Shown one piece after another: positions 500-20,578 of a stretch of 64,000 nt of DNA. Source of the DNA: Nymphaea colorata (lineage: Eukaryota > Streptophyta > Magnoliopsida > Nymphaeales > Nymphaeaceae); assembly GCF_008831285.2 (NCBI RefSeq), contig NC_045144.1:11447672-11511671 (forward strand). The letters run 5' to 3'. The translations under genes and the position numbers were made by a program. Position 1 is the stretch's first letter. Each line of letters opens with the position of its first letter. The notes under the pieces are model-generated. The model saw nothing but the letters and a program-made list of their open reading frames with translations. It made no database searches and had not been told where the DNA came from.

Positions 500-1222
500 G
501 CAATAGCAGTCGTACATACTGAACCTTGTTATAAACCTATCTTATCTAGGAAATCAAAGAAAGTATAAGCAAAACAATAGTCATAAAATTATGCATCCAC
601 ATATCAATAAAATACAAGGAAAACTGCAAAGTTTAAAGGCACAGATAAAGGAGTACTAGTATTTTAATAGAATTGAAAAGTTAAAACGAACAGAAAATGA
701 ACAATACAAACTGAAAAGCATGATATAAGTTTATTTTGCAGAAAACTACTTTTTTCTACAAGCAGGTTTCACACAAAACAAGAAAAGCATGCATTCACAG
801 TAAAAAAAAAAGAAACATATTGAAGCAGCCATCAATCAAGAAGAGGACGAGCAAATAGTAGTTGCCAGACAATAGGAAAACACCACTGGTGATGCAAGGG
901 TTTGCTGGAAAAAGAAAACATCCAAAGTGACCAAAAGAAAAGGCAAGACATTCTTTCGCTGGAGCAGATGCCGGTTGCCAGAAAATTTCGCCGTCTCTTT
1001 GGCAATCTTATCATTGGCGGCGTAGAGGAACCACACCAATCCATCCTGAACTTGGTGGCTAAACTTTACTGCAGTGACGATACTCTTAGTTTCTATAGAG
1101 AGGTTTAGGTTTTTATCGTACATACATGGAATTTTTTTTAAAAAAAAAACAATCTTAAGATGAAAATGGACTCCAGTAATTTTGATCGGTCTAGAAAAGG
1201 ACGAACATGGTCCTAGGGGCAT
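500..1222. other. Unassigned sequence between an LTR fragment and the Copia-B LTR
   Basis: AT-rich sequence with no recognisable gene. A minus-strand open frame across about 836-1130 contains a stretch that looks more protein-like than its surroundings (KFSHQVQDGLVWFLYAAN, then AKETAKFSGN). It has no family I recognise, no clear start, and no convincing splice sites. It could be a relic exon or chance. Confidence 0.3.
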
Positions 1223-1417
1223 TGATTGTTTAGAAACAATAAAAACAAGTAGAATGATGAACAAACACGGATGTAACGTGGAAAACCCTTCAACAAAGAG
1301 AAAAAAACCACGAGTGAGGAGGACTGGTGCCCACTAGCAACCAGACACTCTCTCTCTTAGATTTTCATTCACACTTAGAAATTAGGGTTTACACAGGTTA
1401 AATAGGGCCAACAGTAA
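1223..1417 (-). repeat. Copia-B 3' LTR, distal part (split by Copia-A)
   Basis: On the minus strand this has the look of the R-U5 part of a copia LTR: a 'gggttttccacgtta' block followed by a T-rich stretch, ending in CA at 1223. It directly follows the Copia-A insertion. The proximal part of the same LTR lies at 4865-4931. Bases 1413-1417 (agtaa) are one copy of the Copia-A target-site duplication. The assignment is inference from position and LTR style, since the 5' LTR of Copia-B is not present for comparison. Confidence 0.5.
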
Positions 1418-1633
1418 TGTTGCAAATTGAGAGAGACGAAAGAGATGTCGAGGAAAGGAGAGAACTAGAGAGAGAGAGAGCCAAAAGGATTAATTCATTT
1501 ACGTAACCCTAATCTTTTTTAAAAGAGATTAGGGATGGCTGTAAACACTTTACAAAAACAGTCCAAAAACTATAAGAAAATGTTTAAATACATCCTTTCT
1601 AAGTTTCTAATATTTCAAAAATACTCTTTAACA
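1418..1633 (-). repeat. Copia-A 3' LTR
   Basis: 216 bp, bounded by TG and CA on the minus strand (TGTTAAAGAG ... GCAACA). It contains the inverted block 'ccctaatct ... agattaggg' also found in the 5' LTR and in the Copia-C LTR. The adjacent polypurine tract (minus strand of 1634-1648) fixes the inner boundary. Confidence 0.85.
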
Positions 1634-1640
1634 CTCTCCC

Positions 1641-2960
1641 TCAAGCTGGGGCATATATATCAATCATGCTCAGCTTACTATAACATCTCAGGAAATCGCC
1701 TATGGGAAGAGCCTTGGTGAGGATATCAGTTGCCTGATCTTCTGAGGAGACATGAATAGTGCTAGCAATTCCTTCTTGAACTAAGTCTCGAATATAGTGG
1801 CAATCCACTTCATTGTGTTTAGTCCTCTCATCAAAGACATGATTGTTAGCAATATATGTAGCTGCCTTGTTGTCACAATACATCTTCATTGAGAGATTCA
1901 CTGAAATACCCAACTCCAAAAGTAGTGATCTAACCCACAACATTTCAGCTGCAGTTTGAGCCATAGCCCTATATTCTGACTCAACACTAGAATGAGCCAC
2001 CACATTTTGCTTCTTGCTCTTTCAGAAAATAAGATTACCTCCCACAAAGACACAAAAACCTGTAATAGACTTCTTTTCATCTACAGATCCAGCATAATCA
2101 GCATCACTATAAGCTTCGATGTCAACACATTCTCCCTTTTTGAACCATAACCCCTTTTTCGGAGCTGATTTCAAGTATCTGACAATCATTAGAGCAGCAT
2201 CCCAATGAACCTTCTGAGGTTTTTCCATGAGCTGGCTTACTTATTCATAGCGAAGATAATGTCAGGGCGAGTGACAGTCAAATATAATAGTTTCCCTATC
2301 AGGGATCTTTAAGATCTAGAGTCAAACGGCTCTGAGTCATCATCATGTATACGAATGCGGGGATTCATGGGAAGTGTGGCAGGTTTAGCCCTCAAAGTCC
2401 TGTTTTCTGTAGAAGATCAAGGACATATTTCTTTTGAGACACTACAACTCCTTTATTACTACAAGCCACCTCAATACCATGAAAATAGCGGAGTTGTCCA
2501 AGGTCTTTAGTAACAAAGTGTTGCTGTAAAAACTCCTTTGTTTGAGCTATTTTTTGATCATTTTCTCCGGTAAGAACAATATCATCCACATAGACAAACA
2601 ATATCACCATTCCTGATGAGCCTCGCTTGATAAACAATGAGTGATCAAGCTGGAATCGGTGAAATCCACACTTAGATAACACCTTAGTAAGCTTCTGGAA
2701 CCATGCACGAGGACTTTGTTTGAGTCCATAAATAGCCTTTTTTAATTTGCATACCTTGGAACACTCCCCATCGCTCAAAACCAGGTGGTTGCTGCATATA
2801 GATGGTTTCAGAAAGGTCTTCATATAGAAAGACATTTTTCACATCCAGCTGAAAGAGAGGTCACTCTCGTTGGACAACAAGAGATATAATCAATCGAATA
2901 GTGCCCAACCGAGCCACAGGCGAAAATGTCTCAAAGAAGTCAATACTATAAGTTTGAGTA
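1641..2960 (-). pseudogene. Copia-A reverse transcriptase / RNase H remnant
   Basis: Minus-strand pieces in order: the RT core from the FFETFSPVARL block (about 2945-2875), then KKAIYGLKQSPRAWF, the catalytic YVDD box at 2581-2592, KDLGQLRYFHGIEV, and the RNase H part with SDADYAGS, ESEYRAMA and MYCDNKAA down to the end near the polypurine tract. The frame is broken by a stop after the first RT block (about 2860), a shifted segment around 2229-2391, and another shift near 2010-2030. The protein is a Ty1/copia polymerase C-terminal half and cannot be expressed as one chain. Its 5' end is cut at 2961 by the 5S array, one or two codons upstream of the TYSIDFFETF block. Confidence 0.9.
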
Positions 2961-3104
2961 GCGTTGCGCGGGCCCTCGCCTGGACCTCCTCCGTCGGGGG
3001 GGGGCGGCCCACGTGGTGGCCAAGAAAAGGAGCGCAATGAGCACGCCGCGGCGGTTCGTGCGCGGGAGGCGGGCAAAAGACGGGAAGGGAAAGCGGTGCC
3101 GGGC

Positions 3105-3109
3105 AAAAA
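3105..3109 (-). terminator. Pol III T-run after 5S copy 1
   Basis: Five T residues on the minus strand immediately after the 3' end of the 5S gene, the usual RNA polymerase III stop signal. Confidence 0.7.
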
Positions 3110-3110
3110 G

Positions 3111-3229
3111 GGGATGCAACACGAGGACTTCCCAGGAGGTCACCCATCCCAATACTACTCTCGCCCAAGCACGCTTAACTTCGGAGTTCTGATGGGATCC
3201 GGTGCGTTAGTGCTGGTATGATCGCACCC
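3111..3229 (-). rRNA. 5S ribosomal RNA, copy 1
   Basis: 119 bp that I recognise as plant 5S rRNA on the minus strand, starting GGGTGCGATCATACCAGC and ending TGTTGCATCCC. The internal promoter region (A box, intermediate element, C box) matches the plant pattern without visible change. Upstream on the minus strand there is C at -1, GC around -12, and an AT-rich ATAAGTGAAT block around -22 to -30, which are the positions of known plant 5S upstream elements. A T5 terminator follows. This is the copy most likely to be transcribable. Confidence 0.95.
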
Positions 3230-3536
3230 GCTAGGAGGTGCGAAGACAATTCACTTATGCGCAACGCGGCCCGTCGAAACACCCTCCCGCTGGCCACGGA
3301 AGAATACAAAAAGAAGCGGGGGAAAAAGAAAAAAAAAACTATCTTCGGATTACCGATTTGCTCCCCGTCGAGCGTGGGCGACGGGAGCATGCTGCGTTGC
3401 GCGGGCCCTCGCCTGGACCTCCTCCATCGCGGGGGGCGGCCCACGTGGTGGCCTAGCAGAGGAGCGCGATGAGCACGCCGCGGCGGTTCGTGCGTGGGAG
3501 GCGGGCAAAAGACGGGAAGGGAAAGCGGTGCCGGGC

Positions 3537-3540
3537 AAAA
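3537..3540 (-). terminator. Pol III T-run after 5S copy 2
   Basis: Four T residues on the minus strand just past the 5S gene; one shorter than in copies 1 and 3. Confidence 0.6.
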
Positions 3541-3542
3541 GG

Positions 3543-3661
3543 GGGATGCAACACGAGGACTTCCCAAGAGGTCACCCATCCCAATACTACTCTCTCCCAA
3601 GCACGCTTAACTTCGGAGTTCTGATGGGATCCGGTGCGTTAGTGCTGGTATGATCGCACAT
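3543..3661 (-). rRNA. 5S ribosomal RNA, copy 2 (slightly mutated)
   Basis: Same 119-bp gene as copy 1. Visible differences, in plus-strand spelling: 'cccaagag' for 'cccaggag' in the C-box side, 'tctctccc' for 'tctcgccc', and 'cacat' for 'caccc' at the 5' end of the RNA. These alter the transcript start and an internal control region, so this may be a variant or pseudogene copy. Confidence 0.92.
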
Positions 3662-3970
3662 GCTAGGAGGTGCGAAGACAATTCACTTATGCGCAACGCG
3701 GCCCGTCGAAACACCCTCCCGCTCGCCGCGGAGGAATACGAAAAGAAGCGGGGGAAAAAGAAAAAAAAAAAACTATCTTCTGATTACCGATTTGCCCCCC
3801 GTCGAGCGTGGGCGACGGGAGCATGATGCGTTGCGCGGGCCCTCGCCTGGACCTCCTCCATCGCGGGGGGCGGCCCACGTGGTGGCCGAGCAGAGGAGCG
3901 CGATGAGCACGCCGCGGCGGTTCGTGCGCAGGAGGTGGGCAAAAGACGAGAAGGGAAAGCGGTGCCGGGC

Positions 3971-3975
3971 AAAAA
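3971..3975 (-). terminator. Pol III T-run after 5S copy 3
   Basis: Five T residues on the minus strand immediately after the gene. Confidence 0.7.
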
Positions 3976-3976
3976 G

Positions 3977-4095
3977 GGGATGCAACACGAGGACTTCCTA
4001 TGAGTTCACCCATCCCAATACTACTCTCGCCCAAGCACGCTTAACTTCGGAGTTCTGATGGGATCCTGTGCGTTAGTGCTGGTATGATCGCACCC
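3977..4095 (-). rRNA. 5S ribosomal RNA, copy 3 (slightly mutated)
   Basis: 119 bp on the minus strand. It differs from copy 1 at 'cctatgagttc' for 'cccaggaggtc' (C-box side) and 'gatcctgtgcg' for 'gatccggtgcg'. The rest is the plant 5S sequence. The upstream C(-1) and GC(-12) are conserved. The changes in the internal promoter region suggest reduced constraint. Confidence 0.92.
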
Positions 4096-4200
4096 GCTAG
4101 GAGGTGCGAAGACAATTCACTTATGCGCAACGCGGCCCGTCGAAACACCCTCCCGCTCGCCGCGGAAGAATACGAAAAGAAGCGGGGGAAAAAGAAAAAA

Positions 4201-4633
4201 GATATTGCTCCTCATGTCAAAACTGCATCTTCAAACAACAATGTGACTTCCCACACAGCAGCAAAAAGGGCAGATCTGATATATTATTTCGTAGATTTTC
4301 TTCACAGCAGTAGAAAATCAGATCTGATAAGCAGATCTGAGCGACATAGATATTCTTCCATGGCAACAGAAACTCAGATCTGAAACATCCTTATCAGATC
4401 CACAATCTTCTTCCATGGGAGCAACTTCATCAACATTTCTCCATGTCTTCCACGGCAACAACACAAGGGCGCTAATCACGTTTCTACATGTTAAACGTGA
4501 TTAGCCCCTTTTACCAAACAGATTACTTGCTTTTCTTGAAGTCAGCAAAAAATATACGCGTGAACCCTAACTTGGAGGAAGAGGCGAGAGATGAAGGAAC
4601 GTGAAACACTAGATAGCACAGTCCTAGATCTAG
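4201..4633 (-). other. Copia-A 5' leader with repeated CAGATCTGA boxes and a hairpin
   Basis: Non-coding sequence between the 5S array and the primer binding site. The palindromic box CAGATCTGA or a near form occurs four times between 4271 and 4383. A strong inverted repeat at 4471-4505 pairs GCTAATCACGTTT with AAACGTGATTAGC around a 9-nt loop. It may be the leader or packaging region of the element; that role is inference. Confidence 0.6.
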
Positions 4634-4646
4634 GGCTCTGATACCA
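4634..4646 (-). promoter_or_regulatory. Copia-A primer binding site (tRNA-iMet)
   Basis: The minus strand reads TGGTATCAGAGCC directly next to the 5' LTR, the standard copia primer binding site complementary to the 3' end of initiator tRNA-Met. Confidence 0.9.
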
Positions 4647-4864
4647 TGTTGCAGATTGAGAGAGACGAGAGAGATGTCGAGGAAAGGAGAGAACCAGAGA
4701 GAGAGAGAGAGCCAAAAGGATTAACTCATTTACGTAACCCTAATCTCTTTTAAAAGAGATTAGGGCTGGCTGTAAACACTTTACAAAAACAGTCCAAAAA
4801 ATATAAGAAAATGTTTAAAGACATCCTCTCTATCTTTCTAATATTTTAGAAATACCCTTTAATA
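4647..4864 (-). repeat. Copia-A 5' LTR
   Basis: 218 bp, collinear with the 3' LTR at 1418-1633 and about 93% identical by eye. The outer end reads TATTAAAG on the minus strand rather than TGTTAAAG, so one terminal base has mutated. Target-site copy agtaa follows at 4865-4869. Confidence 0.85.
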
Positions 4865-4931
4865 AGTAACACACTGGATCGGGTCCAGATCCAGACCCAA
4901 ATATATGACCCAAATATAATATATGTCAAGA
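4865..4931 (-). repeat. Copia-B 3' LTR, proximal part
   Basis: Begins on the minus strand directly after the polypurine tract TTGAGGGGGAG of Copia-B, as TCTTGACATATATT where TGTTGACA would be expected. Interrupted at the agtaa target site by Copia-A and continued at 1417-1223. The TGA stop of the Copia-B polyprotein lies in its first bases. Confidence 0.6.
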
Positions 4932-6695
4932 CTCCCCCTCAAGTTGGGCATACATATCAAATATGCCCAACTTGAATACATTTCTCTCAAACTGAGTCAA
5001 ATGTAAGAGTTTAGTCAGAACATCAACAGTTTGGTATTTAAACTTCATATATGGTAGAATCAACTCTTTGGCATCAATTCTCTCCCGGATGAAGTGACGG
5101 TCAATCTCAACATGTTTTGTTCGGTCATGTAACACAGGATTATTGGCCAGATTGATTGCGGACTTGTTATCACAGTACATCTTCATATGTCCTTCAGTCT
5201 CTATCCCAATATTAGTTAGCAATACTTTCAGCCACAATAATTCTGACACTCCAATAGCAATAGCCCTATATTCAGCCTCTGCACTTGAGCGGGAACAAAT
5301 ATCTTGTCTCTTACTCCTCCAAACAACAAGATTTCCCTCCAAGTGGACGCAGTACCCTGAAGTAGATCTTCTAGTATCAACACAGTCTGCCCAGTCTGCA
5401 TATGAATACCTTTCAATCTCAATTGGCCCTTGTTTCACATATAGAGACCCTTTGCCAGGATTCCTCTTCAAGTAGCACAAAATTCTATCAACAACCTTCA
5501 AGTGAATATCTGTAGGAGCATGCATGAACTGACTCATCACATTTACAGCAAAGGTGATATCAGGTCTAGCCAGAGTGAAGTAGATCAATCTTCCAACCAG
5601 ACGTTGATACCTCCCCTTAGCCTCTTCACAAAGAGGTTCTCCATCCTTAATATTGAGTTTGTGTCCGGCATCTAGAGGAGTAGAAGTCGGTCTACACCCT
5701 AGTTTTTCTGTCTCCTTCAGTAAATCCAAGGTATACTTCCTTTGATTTAGCACAAGGGTCGTACCTGATCTAGCAATTTCAATACCCAGAAAACACCTTA
5801 GTTTGCCAAGGTCCTTGAGATGAAATTCGACAGCCAGTAAACCCTTTAATCTTGTTATCTCATCTTCATCATCACATGTAACAATCATATCATCAACATA
5901 CACTAACAAAAGAGTAACCTTACCCTCCTTTCTTTTTACAAATAGAGTATGATCTGTGTTTCCTTGACTGTAGCCATGTTGTCTCATTACAAATCTAAGG
6001 CATTCAAACCATGCTCGGGAAGACTGCTTGAGCTCATACAATGCCTTCTTCAGTTTACAACATTTTTCCGGTTTCTCATATCCTGGGGTCATACACATAT
6101 ACACTTCTTCTTCAAGATCTCCATTGAGAAAAACATTCTTCACGTCAAGTTGGTATATCTTCCACTCCTTCAACACTGCTAGAGAAATAATAACTCTAAT
6201 AGTATTCATCTTCACAACAAGAGCAGAAGTCTCCAAGTAGTCAATCTCATATTTCTGACTAAACCCCTTGGCAAACAGGTGAGCTTTGTACCTCTCAACA
6301 CTCCCATCTGGTTTGTACATATTGGTATAGACCAACTTGGATCCAACCAGATGAGCCACTTCAGAGATCTCCACCACTTCCCACATCCGGTTTTTGCTCA
6401 AGGCTTCCATCTCTTCTTGCATTGCGTGAGTCCATTTGGGATCACTCTGAACCTCTGTAACAGTCCTGAGAATCACAACCAAAGAAAGAGACGATACAAA
6501 GCATTTGTAATCATTGCTCAGTCGAGAATATGATACAAAGTTACCAATAGGGTGTTGAGTACATGACCTGACATGCTTTCTCAGGGCAATGGGAAGCTCC
6601 TTATTTTCAGTTTCTGTCTGAATGTCTTTCTCTTTTGTGTTGAGCACGACTTGGGTCATCCAGGGAAGAAATAGCATTGGTATTAGGAGTAGTAT
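4926..6695 (-). pseudogene. Copia-B polyprotein: integrase C-terminal linker, RT and RNase H
   Basis: A long uninterrupted minus-strand frame encoding the C-terminal part of a Ty1/copia polyprotein. Visible blocks: the linker before RT (DPKWTHAMQEEMEAL), RT start (VGSKLVYTNMYKPDGSVERY), YQLDVKNVFLNGDLEEEVYM, KKALYELKQSSRAWF, the catalytic YVDD at 5889-5900, KDLGKLRCFLGIEI, and RNase H with YADWADCVDTRRSTSGYC, AEAEYRAIA, MYCDNKSA and the final MYAQLEGES. Several conserved positions have drifted, for example ETSALVV where ETFAPVA is usual. The frame is cut at 6695 by the gypsy insertion; the continuation is at 18721-19023. The open frame reads on into the antisense gypsy LTR (to 6977), so its first ~90 residues are not copia. 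Confidence 0.9.
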
Positions 6696-9600
6696 TGTAA
6701 TGCTCGTTGGTTCGGCGGGTCGGGTCGAGCTAGGGTCCAGACCCGGAACCGACCCCCACTCGCGTAAGGGCCCGACGCGAGGCCCTTCTCCCTCGCCTTT
6801 CCCTTCCTTCTTTGTTGTCTCCGGTGGTTTCCTGTGGCAGCGCAGAGGGAGGAGAGTGACGGTTGGGTGGTGGTGGCTGGAACGGCGACGGCGACGGCGA
6901 CGGAGGTGGCAGTGGCGGCGGCGGCGGCTGGGTAAACCCTCTCTCTCTCGTGCGATTTTTCTTGCTCTGCCACTCATGCCCTTTTGTTTGTTTTGCTCTC
7001 TGCCGCACGTCCCCTCTTCTTCTCTCTCGCCATTTTCTTTCCCCTCTTTCCGCTGGTTCTCTACCGCTCGACCCTCTTCTCACTCACCCGCACTCCCCCG
7101 CCTGCTCTTTCTCTCTCTTCTCACCCCACGGCCGTTTTCCCCCTTGACCGAACCCTTCCTCTCTCTGTCTCTCCTCTCTGTCAGCGTCCCTTTTCTTTGT
7201 TTATTTCAGTTTTTTTCCCCCACTACTACCGTGGGTCTTTCCTAGCAACAGAGTTTGTGTTAAACTTTTTGGGCGTTTGGGGTTGGTTTGCAGTTTAGGG
7301 GACGTTTTCCCCTCTTACCTGCTAGTAGGCTGTGTAGTGAGCAGCGACAGCAAGCAATCTCGAGCATTGGCACTTGATCGGACGTGTGAAGTGGTTGCTA
7401 GAAGGGTTGTAGCAGTTTGGACGCTTGTTTTGGGGTGAGCAATACCTAATCAAGCTCAAAATGATGAGTATTTATCTTTTAGAGCATGTATAATTATGGT
7501 TCGAGCATGCTAGAGCTTAGAATTGATGATTTTAGGACGCATGTTAGTAATTTTGTTTTTGGGGGAAACTTAGGATTTGCGTTGGAAAGTGATGATTCAT
7601 GTACTTAATGATCGTTTTAGCATGATGGATTAATTTTCGAAGCTTTAGGGAAGCATGGTAGAGATTGTGTGGTTGTGGGGAAGATTTAGAACCATCTTAG
7701 GGAGTGTAGCGCAGACTTCGGTAAACAGGTGTATCATGAAGTTCTTTAGGGATATATGCGTATTGGGATGTGACTTGAGGTTGATGCCTTACTTAAAGAA
7801 CGTTATTGAGAAAGGAATTAGTGATGGTTTGATTGATGGTTGAAGGCTTTGATAATTCAAGGCAACGTCAAGACGTAAAGGAGGAGGCCTTGTGGAGAGC
7901 CCGTTGGTCGACACTACCTGTCGATACCCTCTTGAGGCGCTGACACGTGCCTCAAGGATTTTATTTTTGTATCTGTTCGTTTCTATTTGATTGGTGTAGG
8001 TATCTAGTAGAAACCTTATTCTTGTTTATGTTTGCAGGTGCACCGGGCTCATCCCGTCGACCTTGAGTTCGAAGCTTGAGGCATTTTGAAGAATTTGGTG
8101 AGCGCGCCACAGGTATGGCAACTTTCCAGGCAAATTCCTGCCTGGGGCAATTGTGTGATTGGGTGCTCCTAGGATCAAGGGATCCTAGGATTGTGATGTT
8201 AATTGATTGACTGTTTTGTGATTGAGTATGTGTATGTTGCTTACATGATATGAATGGGTTAGAAAGATTATTAGTCATTCGATTTAAAAATGTTACGCAT
8301 TGGCATGTGCATGCTAGAATTGATATCTGTTTAGGACAGATGAGGTGGGGTATCGAGTCGAGTGTCTCCTCGACCCCAATTGTGCATTAGAAAGCATCAT
8401 AGAATGATAACTGCATAGGACAGCTACGAGCCAACCGCAGATCGAGACTACTCTCTGTGGATTGGCTAAGTTTTTCGAAGAGGTGATTGACATGATTGAT
8501 GTGAGGATTGATGTGATGATTGATATGAATGTGTATGTTGTTGCATATGCATTGCCATGGGCAATGATGCAAATGGATGTTTTGGAGGGTAGTTGTACCC
8601 GTATGGTATGACGGCTAGCAATGACTGTTACTGTATGTATAGACCTCATGTGGAGGTAATCGGAGGTGTGGGTGCACTCGGGAAGTGTACTGACCTCGTG
8701 TGCTAGCCAGTCATCTTATGAATGTGTAACTATAATGATAAGAATGAATAACTAAGAGATGAGAGACCAGTGGGATGTGGCTATGTGTTTGGGAGACGTC
8801 CCCCTTGATTGCCACTGGTCTCGCCTGTCAGAGCGCAGGCGGTGCAAGGCCCCAGGGTTCTGTTGTGTGTTGTGCTTGGAGCGTTGAGCTCCTGCCTTCC
8901 CAACCTGGGTGTCCTAGGGAAGGCTGAGTATCTCACCTTGGACGTCACACATCCAGGGATGAGTGCTCTACCGCTGCAGCGGGTGAAATGGATCCATACT
9001 GTTATGGGCCACCACGGGGGTTGTCTCTCGGCTGTAGGCCGCCCGCGGTGTGCACGTGCCTGTGTTGCACCCACAGGAACTGTTAATGCACTAAAGTTAA
9101 TGAAAATGCAAAGTGTTTGACAGAATGCATGTGACTGACGTATATGTGATTGATATGAATGCAAGTGTTATGTTTAAGCATGCTTCGCATGTGACTGATG
9201 TTGGGTTAGTGTGGCCATCAAGTGGCTTTTACGTGTCGCACTCAGACGCGACATGACGATAGATGGGTTGATATTTGTCCCTTTATTTGAGCCTTACTTG
9301 AGAGGGTTTGGCATTTTTCTGGCTTGTTGCCATACTGCGAAGGCTGAGCCTTCAGTTGTTTTCTTTTTCAGGTTTTGGCGGACCCGGGGCAACAGGTTGA
9401 GCGGATGGCTTCACTCACGTCCTACTGGGGTGGTTTTGGTATTGTCGTTTGTAGTGCCGGCGCGTCATGTTTTGGTTTTATTGATGTCTTCTTTTTGTTA
9501 GGCATCAATGTTATTGATTTTGGGGCATTTTGGTCATGCACATAGATGTGAATTTGTATGAAACAAAAGGGTTATATTAATGCTTTATGTTTGCCCCATT

Positions 9601-19023: not shown

Positions 19024-19255
19024 TGTTGCAGCCTTGAGACATGGAGAGAAAGTGAGAAAGAGTTGAAGTCGTGAGAGTTTGGGGAGAGAAAACGTACTCT
19101 ATTCACTAACCCTAATCTCTATTATAAAGAGATTAGGGTAGAATGGAAATTTACAGATGACATCAATCTAAAATAAAGAAAATATTAAAGAGATCTTATA
19201 ACTCTTTAATATTACAAAGAACCACCTAGAAACATAAACTCCTTTAATTTCAACA
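19024..19255 (-). repeat. Copia-C 3' LTR
   Basis: 232 bp, TGTTGAAATT ... CTGCAACA on the minus strand, with the 'ccctaatct ... agattaggg' inverted block shared in style with the Copia-A LTR. The inner edge abuts the polypurine tract (minus strand of 19256-19268). The matching 5' LTR was not found; it may lie in or beyond the assembly gap. Confidence 0.75.
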
Positions 19256-20578
19256 CTCCTCCTCAAGCTCGAGCATACATATTAAACATGTTCAGCTTGC
19301 CACAACATTTAGAGAAATCACCAATAGGGAGAGCTTTGGTGAAGACATCTGCAGCTTGATCTTCTGAAGGAACATGAATAGTGGCAATGGTTCCTCCTTG
19401 AACGAGATCCCGAATGTAATGGCAGTCACCTTCAATATGTTTAGTTCTCTCATGAAAAACTAGATTGTTTGCAATGTATGTGGTTGCTCGAATGTCACAA
19501 TACATCTATCTTCATGGGAAGTGGAATCGACACACTTAGGCTAGATAACATGGATATAGCCCAAGTCATTTCTGCCTGCAGTTTGAGCCATAGCTCTATA
19601 TTCGGATTCTACACTAGATCTTGACACCACGCCTTGTTTTTTGCTTCTCCATAATATGAGGTTGCCTCCCAAAAATATACATCTTGTGGTAGATTTCCTG
19701 TCTTCGACTGAGCCAGCATAGTCAGCATCACTATAGGCTTCCACTTCCAGGGTCTTGCCTTTTTTGAACAAAAGGCCTTTGCCAGGAGACGATTTCATAT
19801 ATTTAACCACCATCAAGCAGCATCCCAATGAACTTTCCTGGGTTTTTTCATAAATTGACTTAGTTTTCCCACTACAAAGCTAATGTCTGATCTTGTCACA
19901 GTAACATAGAGTAGTTTTCCAATAAGGACCTGTAAGATCGAGAATCCACTAATTTTGTTTGGTCATCATGAAGGTGTATACGTGGATTCATAAGTAAATT
20001 AGCCAGTTTAGTTCCTAGCATCCATGTGTCCTGCAATAAATCAAGAACATACTTCCGTTGAGAGAGAACAACACCATCCCTATTGCGAGCAACCTCTATT
20101 CTCAAGAAATATCGTAGTGGACCAAGATCTTTCATCACAAAGTGTTTTTGAAGAAACAGCTTTGCATCAGAAATTTCTTGATCGGAGTCACCTGTCAGGA
20201 TAATATCATCAACATAAACCACTATGATGGTTTACCCCTGGAAGCCTTCTTGATAGACTGAGAATGATCAAAAGGAGATCTCGCAAAGCTACACTTTGAG
20301 ACTACCTCGAAAAACTTGTGAAACCACGCATGAGGACTCTGCTTGAGTCCATAAATAGTTTTCTTCAGTTTGCACACTTTGCCACACTCCCCCTATCGTT
20401 CAAACCCTGGTGGTTGTTGCATATAGACAGTCTCATTGAGATCACCGTAAAAAAATTTTTTTTGACATCAAGCTGGTACATGTGCCAGTCATGGTGTACA
20501 ACCCCAAAAATGATAAGACGAATGTTCTCAAACCGAGCAACCGGAGAAAATGTCTCAAAGAAATCCACACCGTAGGTC
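19256..20578 (-). pseudogene. Copia-C reverse transcriptase / RNase H remnant
   Basis: Close relative of the Copia-A remnant, with the same blocks in order: TYGVDFFETFSPVAR next to the gap, the YQLDVKK block, the catalytic YVDD at 20205-20216, KDLGPLRYFL, then RNase H with YSDADYAGSVEDRKSTT, ESEYRAMAQTA, HERTKHIEGDCHYIRD and the C-terminal MFNMYARA. Several frameshifts are present (for example about 19510-19545, 19830-19900 and 20220-20365). The 5' side stops at the assembly gap, at nearly the same codon where Copia-A joins its 5S array. Confidence 0.88.

Follow-up and report, generated by a model that had tools for sequence, protein, structure and literature searches.

The window, by which we mean the whole 64-kb stretch of DNA that was analysed (C7:11447672-11511671, from a genome of 407.8 Mb in 783 contigs), contains exactly three 5S rRNA genes at the Rfam gathering cut-off, all of them full-length and on the minus strand; no further Rfam match was found at that cut-off in the whole 64 kb. 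As had been predicted from the sequence, the three genes lie inside one copia-type element, with LTRs at 1418-1633 and 4647-4864 and a single AGTAA duplication, and their sense is that of the element, both being on the minus strand. The features of the locus, in window coordinates, are as follows:

1413-1417, no strand: target-site duplication AGTAA, left copy, identical to 4865-4869
1418-1633, minus strand: 3' LTR of the copia-type element, with TG...CA ends; 15 substitutions in 216 sites and a 2-bp indel relative to the 5' LTR
1640-2960, minus strand: RT and RNase H remnant (named by eye), with at least 40 genome matches at 88-100% identity, itself included
2960/2961, no strand: junction 1, from element to 5S spacer, with 0 bp in common
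2961-4200, minus strand: inserted 5S rDNA of 1240 bp, with three genes, two full spacers and two partial spacers
3111-3229, minus strand: 5S gene of unit c (Rfam RF00001, 110.8 bits, E 1.6e-23)
3543-3661, minus strand: 5S gene of unit b (Rfam, 98.2 bits, E 3.6e-20)
3977-4095, minus strand: 5S gene of unit a (Rfam, 95.7 bits, E 1.6e-19)
4200/4201, no strand: junction 2, from 5S spacer to element leader, with at most 1 bp (A) in common
4201-4632, minus strand: element leader, from the primer site to the insert, seen in genome matches of 4201-4646
4633-4646, minus strand: primer-binding site TGGTATCAGAGCCC, abutting the LTR at 4647
4647-4864, minus strand: 5' LTR, from the LTR-pair comparison
4865-4869, no strand: target-site duplication AGTAA, right copy, identical to 1413-1417

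The element has the structure of a copia-type LTR retrotransposon: its LTRs have TG...CA ends, with TA in place of CA at one of them, and there is a 5-bp target-site duplication and a primer-binding site adjoining the 5' LTR. We take this site, TGGTATCAGAGCCC, to be of the initiator Met-tRNA type; since it abuts the LTR at 4647, the element lies on the minus strand. The remnant beside the 3' LTR is presumably copia-type RT and RNase H, judged by eye from motifs in the frame translation, and its three frames contain 20, 25 and 30 stops. The insert holds the three genes that had been expected, but the 'full spacers' of the original prediction were only partly borne out, as two spacers are complete and the two outer ones are partial. 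In its surroundings, the host element is apparently nested in another copia-type element on the same strand (window 1200-1412 and 4870-6700; by eye), and the RT region has a second relative in the window, a diverged one at 19107-20565, with 69% identity over 1487 aligned positions.

Other copies of the element at the two junctions

A genome search with the RT remnant gave at least 40 scored matches, the element itself included, out of 1449 first-look candidates, and we compared 30 of these loci, namely the window itself and 29 of the 39 other copies. Similarity ended at 2960 in 27 of the other copies, at 2958 in one and at 2950 in one, and 5S sequence was found at junction 1 in none of the 29 RT-bearing copies examined (of 39 scored). 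A search with the leader (4201-4646) gave at least 68 matching pieces, from 40 scored candidates of 142. Seven longer stretches (L039-L045) were compared, four of which (L040-L043) hold both element ends, with 3336-3604 bp from the point matching 2960 (2950 in L042) to 4200-4201; no 5S sequence was found within this interior. The leader was not found in the other three long stretches (L039, L044 and L045). Twenty short stretches beside the leaders of other copies gave no match to the 5S insert. The element's own sequence reaches the break in 17 of these and also in L040-L043, amounting to 21 copies in total, and the break point is not visible in the remaining three: L055 (C2:25763430-25763830) has its leader joined to the RNase H side, which by eye is an internal deletion without insert, L059 has leader-like repeats at this place, and L062 was not placed. 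Across both sets, 5S sequence at or near junction 2 was absent from all 24 other leader-bearing copies examined (of 39 scored).

Relative to its relatives, therefore, the element has undergone a replacement. The predicted breakpoints at 2961 and 4200 proved exact, with likeness to other copies ending at 2960 and restarting at 4200-4201, and the 5S DNA does stand in place of most of the coding region: the four copies with both ends have 3.3-3.6 kb of their own sequence where this element has 1240 bp of 5S DNA. By position and copia gene order, the parts missing here are presumably gag, protease, integrase and the start of RT.

The junctions are nearly blunt. At junction 1 the element ends in ...GAGTA and the 5S part starts with GCGTTGCG. 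Since a T precedes GCGTTGCG in units b and a, and the element continues with T in six of the seven relatives shown (L042 has a small deletion there), the two sides have no base in common. At junction 2 the element restarts with GATATTG. Most relatives have A just before it, and the last bases of the 5S part are a run of A, which leaves one base at most in common.

Two explanations had been put forward for this arrangement. According to the first, a 5S array was captured before transposition, and the element would thereby be able to move 5S units: RT would have left the element RNA for a long read-through transcript of the 5S array and then returned to it, and the hybrid would have integrated, making the AGTAA duplication. 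The insert is indeed enclosed by LTRs, primer site and duplication, and the 5S genes run in the element's sense. However, the comparison with other copies does not support capture, because no sister copy was present among those examined. Neither a multicopy family carrying a 5S piece, as for Cassandra, nor identical 5S junctions at different sites, as for a 5S-transducing retrotransposon, was found among the 29 copies at junction 1 and the 24 at junction 2. The absence of any common base at junction 1 also speaks against capture, as do the included spacers and the run of four or five T after each gene, which mean that a normally terminated 5S transcript cannot have been the template. We therefore treat capture as a rival explanation, and an unlikely one. 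If it were true, the locus would preserve one instance of a retrotransposon dispersing 5S units, delivered within one duplication to a site 1.85 Mb away from the array, and might represent a stage preceding a Cassandra-like element.

The second explanation, in which the 5S DNA was inserted or recombined into an element already in place, agrees with the observations. The original prediction had also held that a lack of 5S units in other family members would leave a one-off local event, and such a lack is what we observed in the copies examined (29 of 39 at junction 1 and 24 of 39 at junction 2). Within a resident element the change could have taken two separate events, a 5S insertion and an internal gag-pol deletion before or after it. 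An internal deletion is present in L055, but here both ends of the insert are exactly both ends of the missing stretch, which a single event explains more simply, and we consider two events even less likely than capture.

One further 5S-like stretch was seen during these comparisons, at 754-789 of L018. It matches the 5S sequence at window 3105-3142 over 38 positions at 89%, lies about 530 bp beyond the end of the LTR match with no junction there, and is perhaps a 5S-derived repeat.

Origin and relative age of the 5S units

The best 47 5S matches of the genome, out of 9052 first-look candidates, lie at C7 9.583-9.595 Mb and on C656. A search with the spacer of the window gave at least 53 matches (40 of 111 candidates scored), two of them in the insert and the others in C7:9577034-9598394 or on C656; among the 53 listed, none lay outside the insert, the C7 array and C656. 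The best of the listed matches outside the insert were two spacers of the array margin, at 94%. The array (C7:9.577-9.598 Mb) is on the same contig as the insert at a distance of 1.85 Mb, and two arms of 1.85 Mb make up about 1% of the genome (calculated by hand, after the fact).

The array consists of homogenised units of about 429 and about 435 bp, with degenerate units beside and between the blocks. At C7:9583278-9595200 the two homogenised unit types occupy separate blocks, the type of about 435 bp having an extra 8 bp, and the first 10 kb of C656 (1-10000) show the shorter unit spacing only. In the array margin (C7:9580808-9583277), spacer matches lie 11 bases apart in several places, for example 9581557-9581870 and 9581882-9582193; these are therefore successive spacer copies without a 5S gene in between.

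Window units a and b differ from modern array units by 4.9-5.8%, and part-unit c by 3.4-4.1%, compared with 6.3-16.4% between the window units and seven degenerate units. The nearest whole units to a, b and c are thus modern rather than degenerate ones, the degenerate units differing more because they decayed on their own. Ten differences from the array majority are common to the comparable window units. Nine of these recur among the seven degenerate units, each in at least one and up to all seven of them, and three of the nine occur in modern units too; the tenth, a T at gene position 78, is found in the insert only. The window units have 9, 12 and 4 private changes, leaving aside sites gapped in a compared row and anything beyond the point where unit c stops. 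A FastTree tree of 68 spacers, rooted at the midpoint, groups the two complete window spacers in a clade of their own (support 0.83), which is placed outside the homogenised units and beside old margin units. The insert is thus kin to an older state of the C7 array; given the tree placement and the differences common with degenerate units, its sequence most likely derives from that state and has long been independent.

The same data bear on a possible assembly chimera joining a copia element to 5S DNA. The difficulty of assembling 5S arrays is a point in favour of such an artefact. On the other side, the private changes and the separate spacer clade indicate that the units are not misplaced reads from the modern array, and the LTRs and the duplication match on both sides of the insert. 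On these private mutations and matching flanks we judged an assembly artefact very improbable, the least likely of the alternatives weighed here, and the locus is probably real and one-off.

We also compared the age of the 5S units with that of the element. The LTR pair differs by 9 transitions and 6 transversions in 216 sites (K2P 0.073), and LTR pairs in four other copies (L040-L043) have K2P values of 0.019-0.064. The 5S units are separated by K2P distances of 0.048 (a-b), 0.050 (a-c) and 0.046 (b-c). Units carried in by the element would be expected to show no less divergence than the LTRs, all the more so because the insert contains 127 CpG in 1240 bp versus 3 in each LTR. This argues against capture, since the 5S units are the less diverged: counted per lineage, they have 25 private changes in 1135 sites versus 15 in 432 for the LTRs (two LTRs of 216 sites), with a one-sided p = 0.11, or p = 0.09 when nine array-branch changes are added. 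These values hint that the 5S DNA may have arrived after the element, with an age gap that is not significant (p = 0.11). With the rate of PMC5688495, 1.3e-8 substitutions per site per year, rough dates would be about 2.8 million years for the LTRs and about 1.8-1.9 million at most for the 5S units.

Probable replacement at a repaired break

End joining with filler DNA is a deletion plus an ectopic insert, with little or no common sequence at the junctions. A deletion, an ectopic insert and near-zero junction overlap are all found at this locus, and this combination suggests that end joining with filler DNA was the pathway. In plants, some end-joining events bring in filler DNA, for which a range of sequences on the chromosome concerned or on others can serve (PMC11712536). 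The locus resembles such insertions in its deletion, in its joined ectopic DNA and in the near lack of common junction sequence; it differs in that the donor is tandem rDNA of nearly three units and the recipient a retrotransposon. We therefore consider it quite likely that the locus is a one-off replacement in a resident, dead element, brought about by a break, loss of gag-pol and end joining of a 5S piece. The copia element would already have been resident at the site when a double-strand break occurred in its interior. About 3.3-3.6 kb, the amount that four relatives have from leader to RT, would then have been lost, and non-homologous end joining would have joined the ends to a piece of nearly three 5S rDNA units that came from the array located today at C7:9.577-9.598 Mb, in an earlier form. 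A counter-point is that the 5S genes run in the element's sense, as RNA capture predicts; by chance this would happen one time in two. Another is the closer likeness of window units a, b and c to modern array units than to degenerate ones.

The donor may have been a linear piece of free DNA, a 5S circle of three units that had become linear, or a patch of sequence copied out of the array. By hand count, the 1240-bp insert measures about 60 bp less than three units. When tandem repeats give rise to circular DNA, it consists mostly of exact multiples of the unit, and 5S rDNA circular multimers are reported from human cells, after earlier reports from Drosophila and plants (PMC3225859). The insert resembles these extrachromosomal circles in being near three units, but a circle origin is no more than hinted at, as chance alone would bring about 14% of fragments within the same distance below a whole multiple (61 of 434 bp; calculated by hand). 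As proof of a circle, the near-whole multiple of units is accordingly weak.

We next considered known associations of 5S DNA with LTR elements. Cassandra and Ajax, which together with Helenus are listed as TRIMp3 retrotransposons, carry a 5S-derived piece in their LTRs, and a 5-bp target-site duplication is reported for Ajax (PMC10886601). The present element is similar in being an LTR element associated with 5S-derived sequence and in the length of its duplication. In contrast to their LTR-borne piece, however, whole genes and spacers lie here in the internal region, and a second 5S-carrying copy was not found among the copies examined. BLASTN of the insert (E 1e-5) gave no 5S match in the rest of the window, LTRs included. 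Membership in the Cassandra TRIMs was rejected, as a 5S-derived promoter in both LTRs was not found. According to Maiwald et al. (PMC10853983), a whole 5S gene is present in none of 81 Cassandras, and Cassandra is suggested to have originated when an LTR element gained 5S DNA through transposition, recombination or integration of eccDNA. The present locus provides a naturally occurring case of 5S DNA inside an LTR element, a step proposed for that origin; here the entry was probably a recombination-type event, and it seems to have led nowhere.

In wheat 5BS, 5S arrays are interrupted by LTR retrotransposons (PMC5688495). There, as here, 5S units and LTR elements adjoin, but the wheat elements sit in the array, whereas here the 5S DNA sits inside an element 1.85 Mb from the array. 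In the portions of the open-licence literature surveyed, we noticed no report of whole 5S units in the internal region of an LTR element. Among known systems, the locus is closest to rDNA insertion at a repaired break, with an unusual recipient.

Since the replacement, the 5S units would have decayed into a small cluster of 5S pseudogenes. Unit c has a nearly intact gene, with one difference from the array genes (99.2% identity), and this gene might still be transcribed. Out of reach of concerted evolution, the insert preserves an older form of this genome's 5S repeat and could be of use in dating array turnover.
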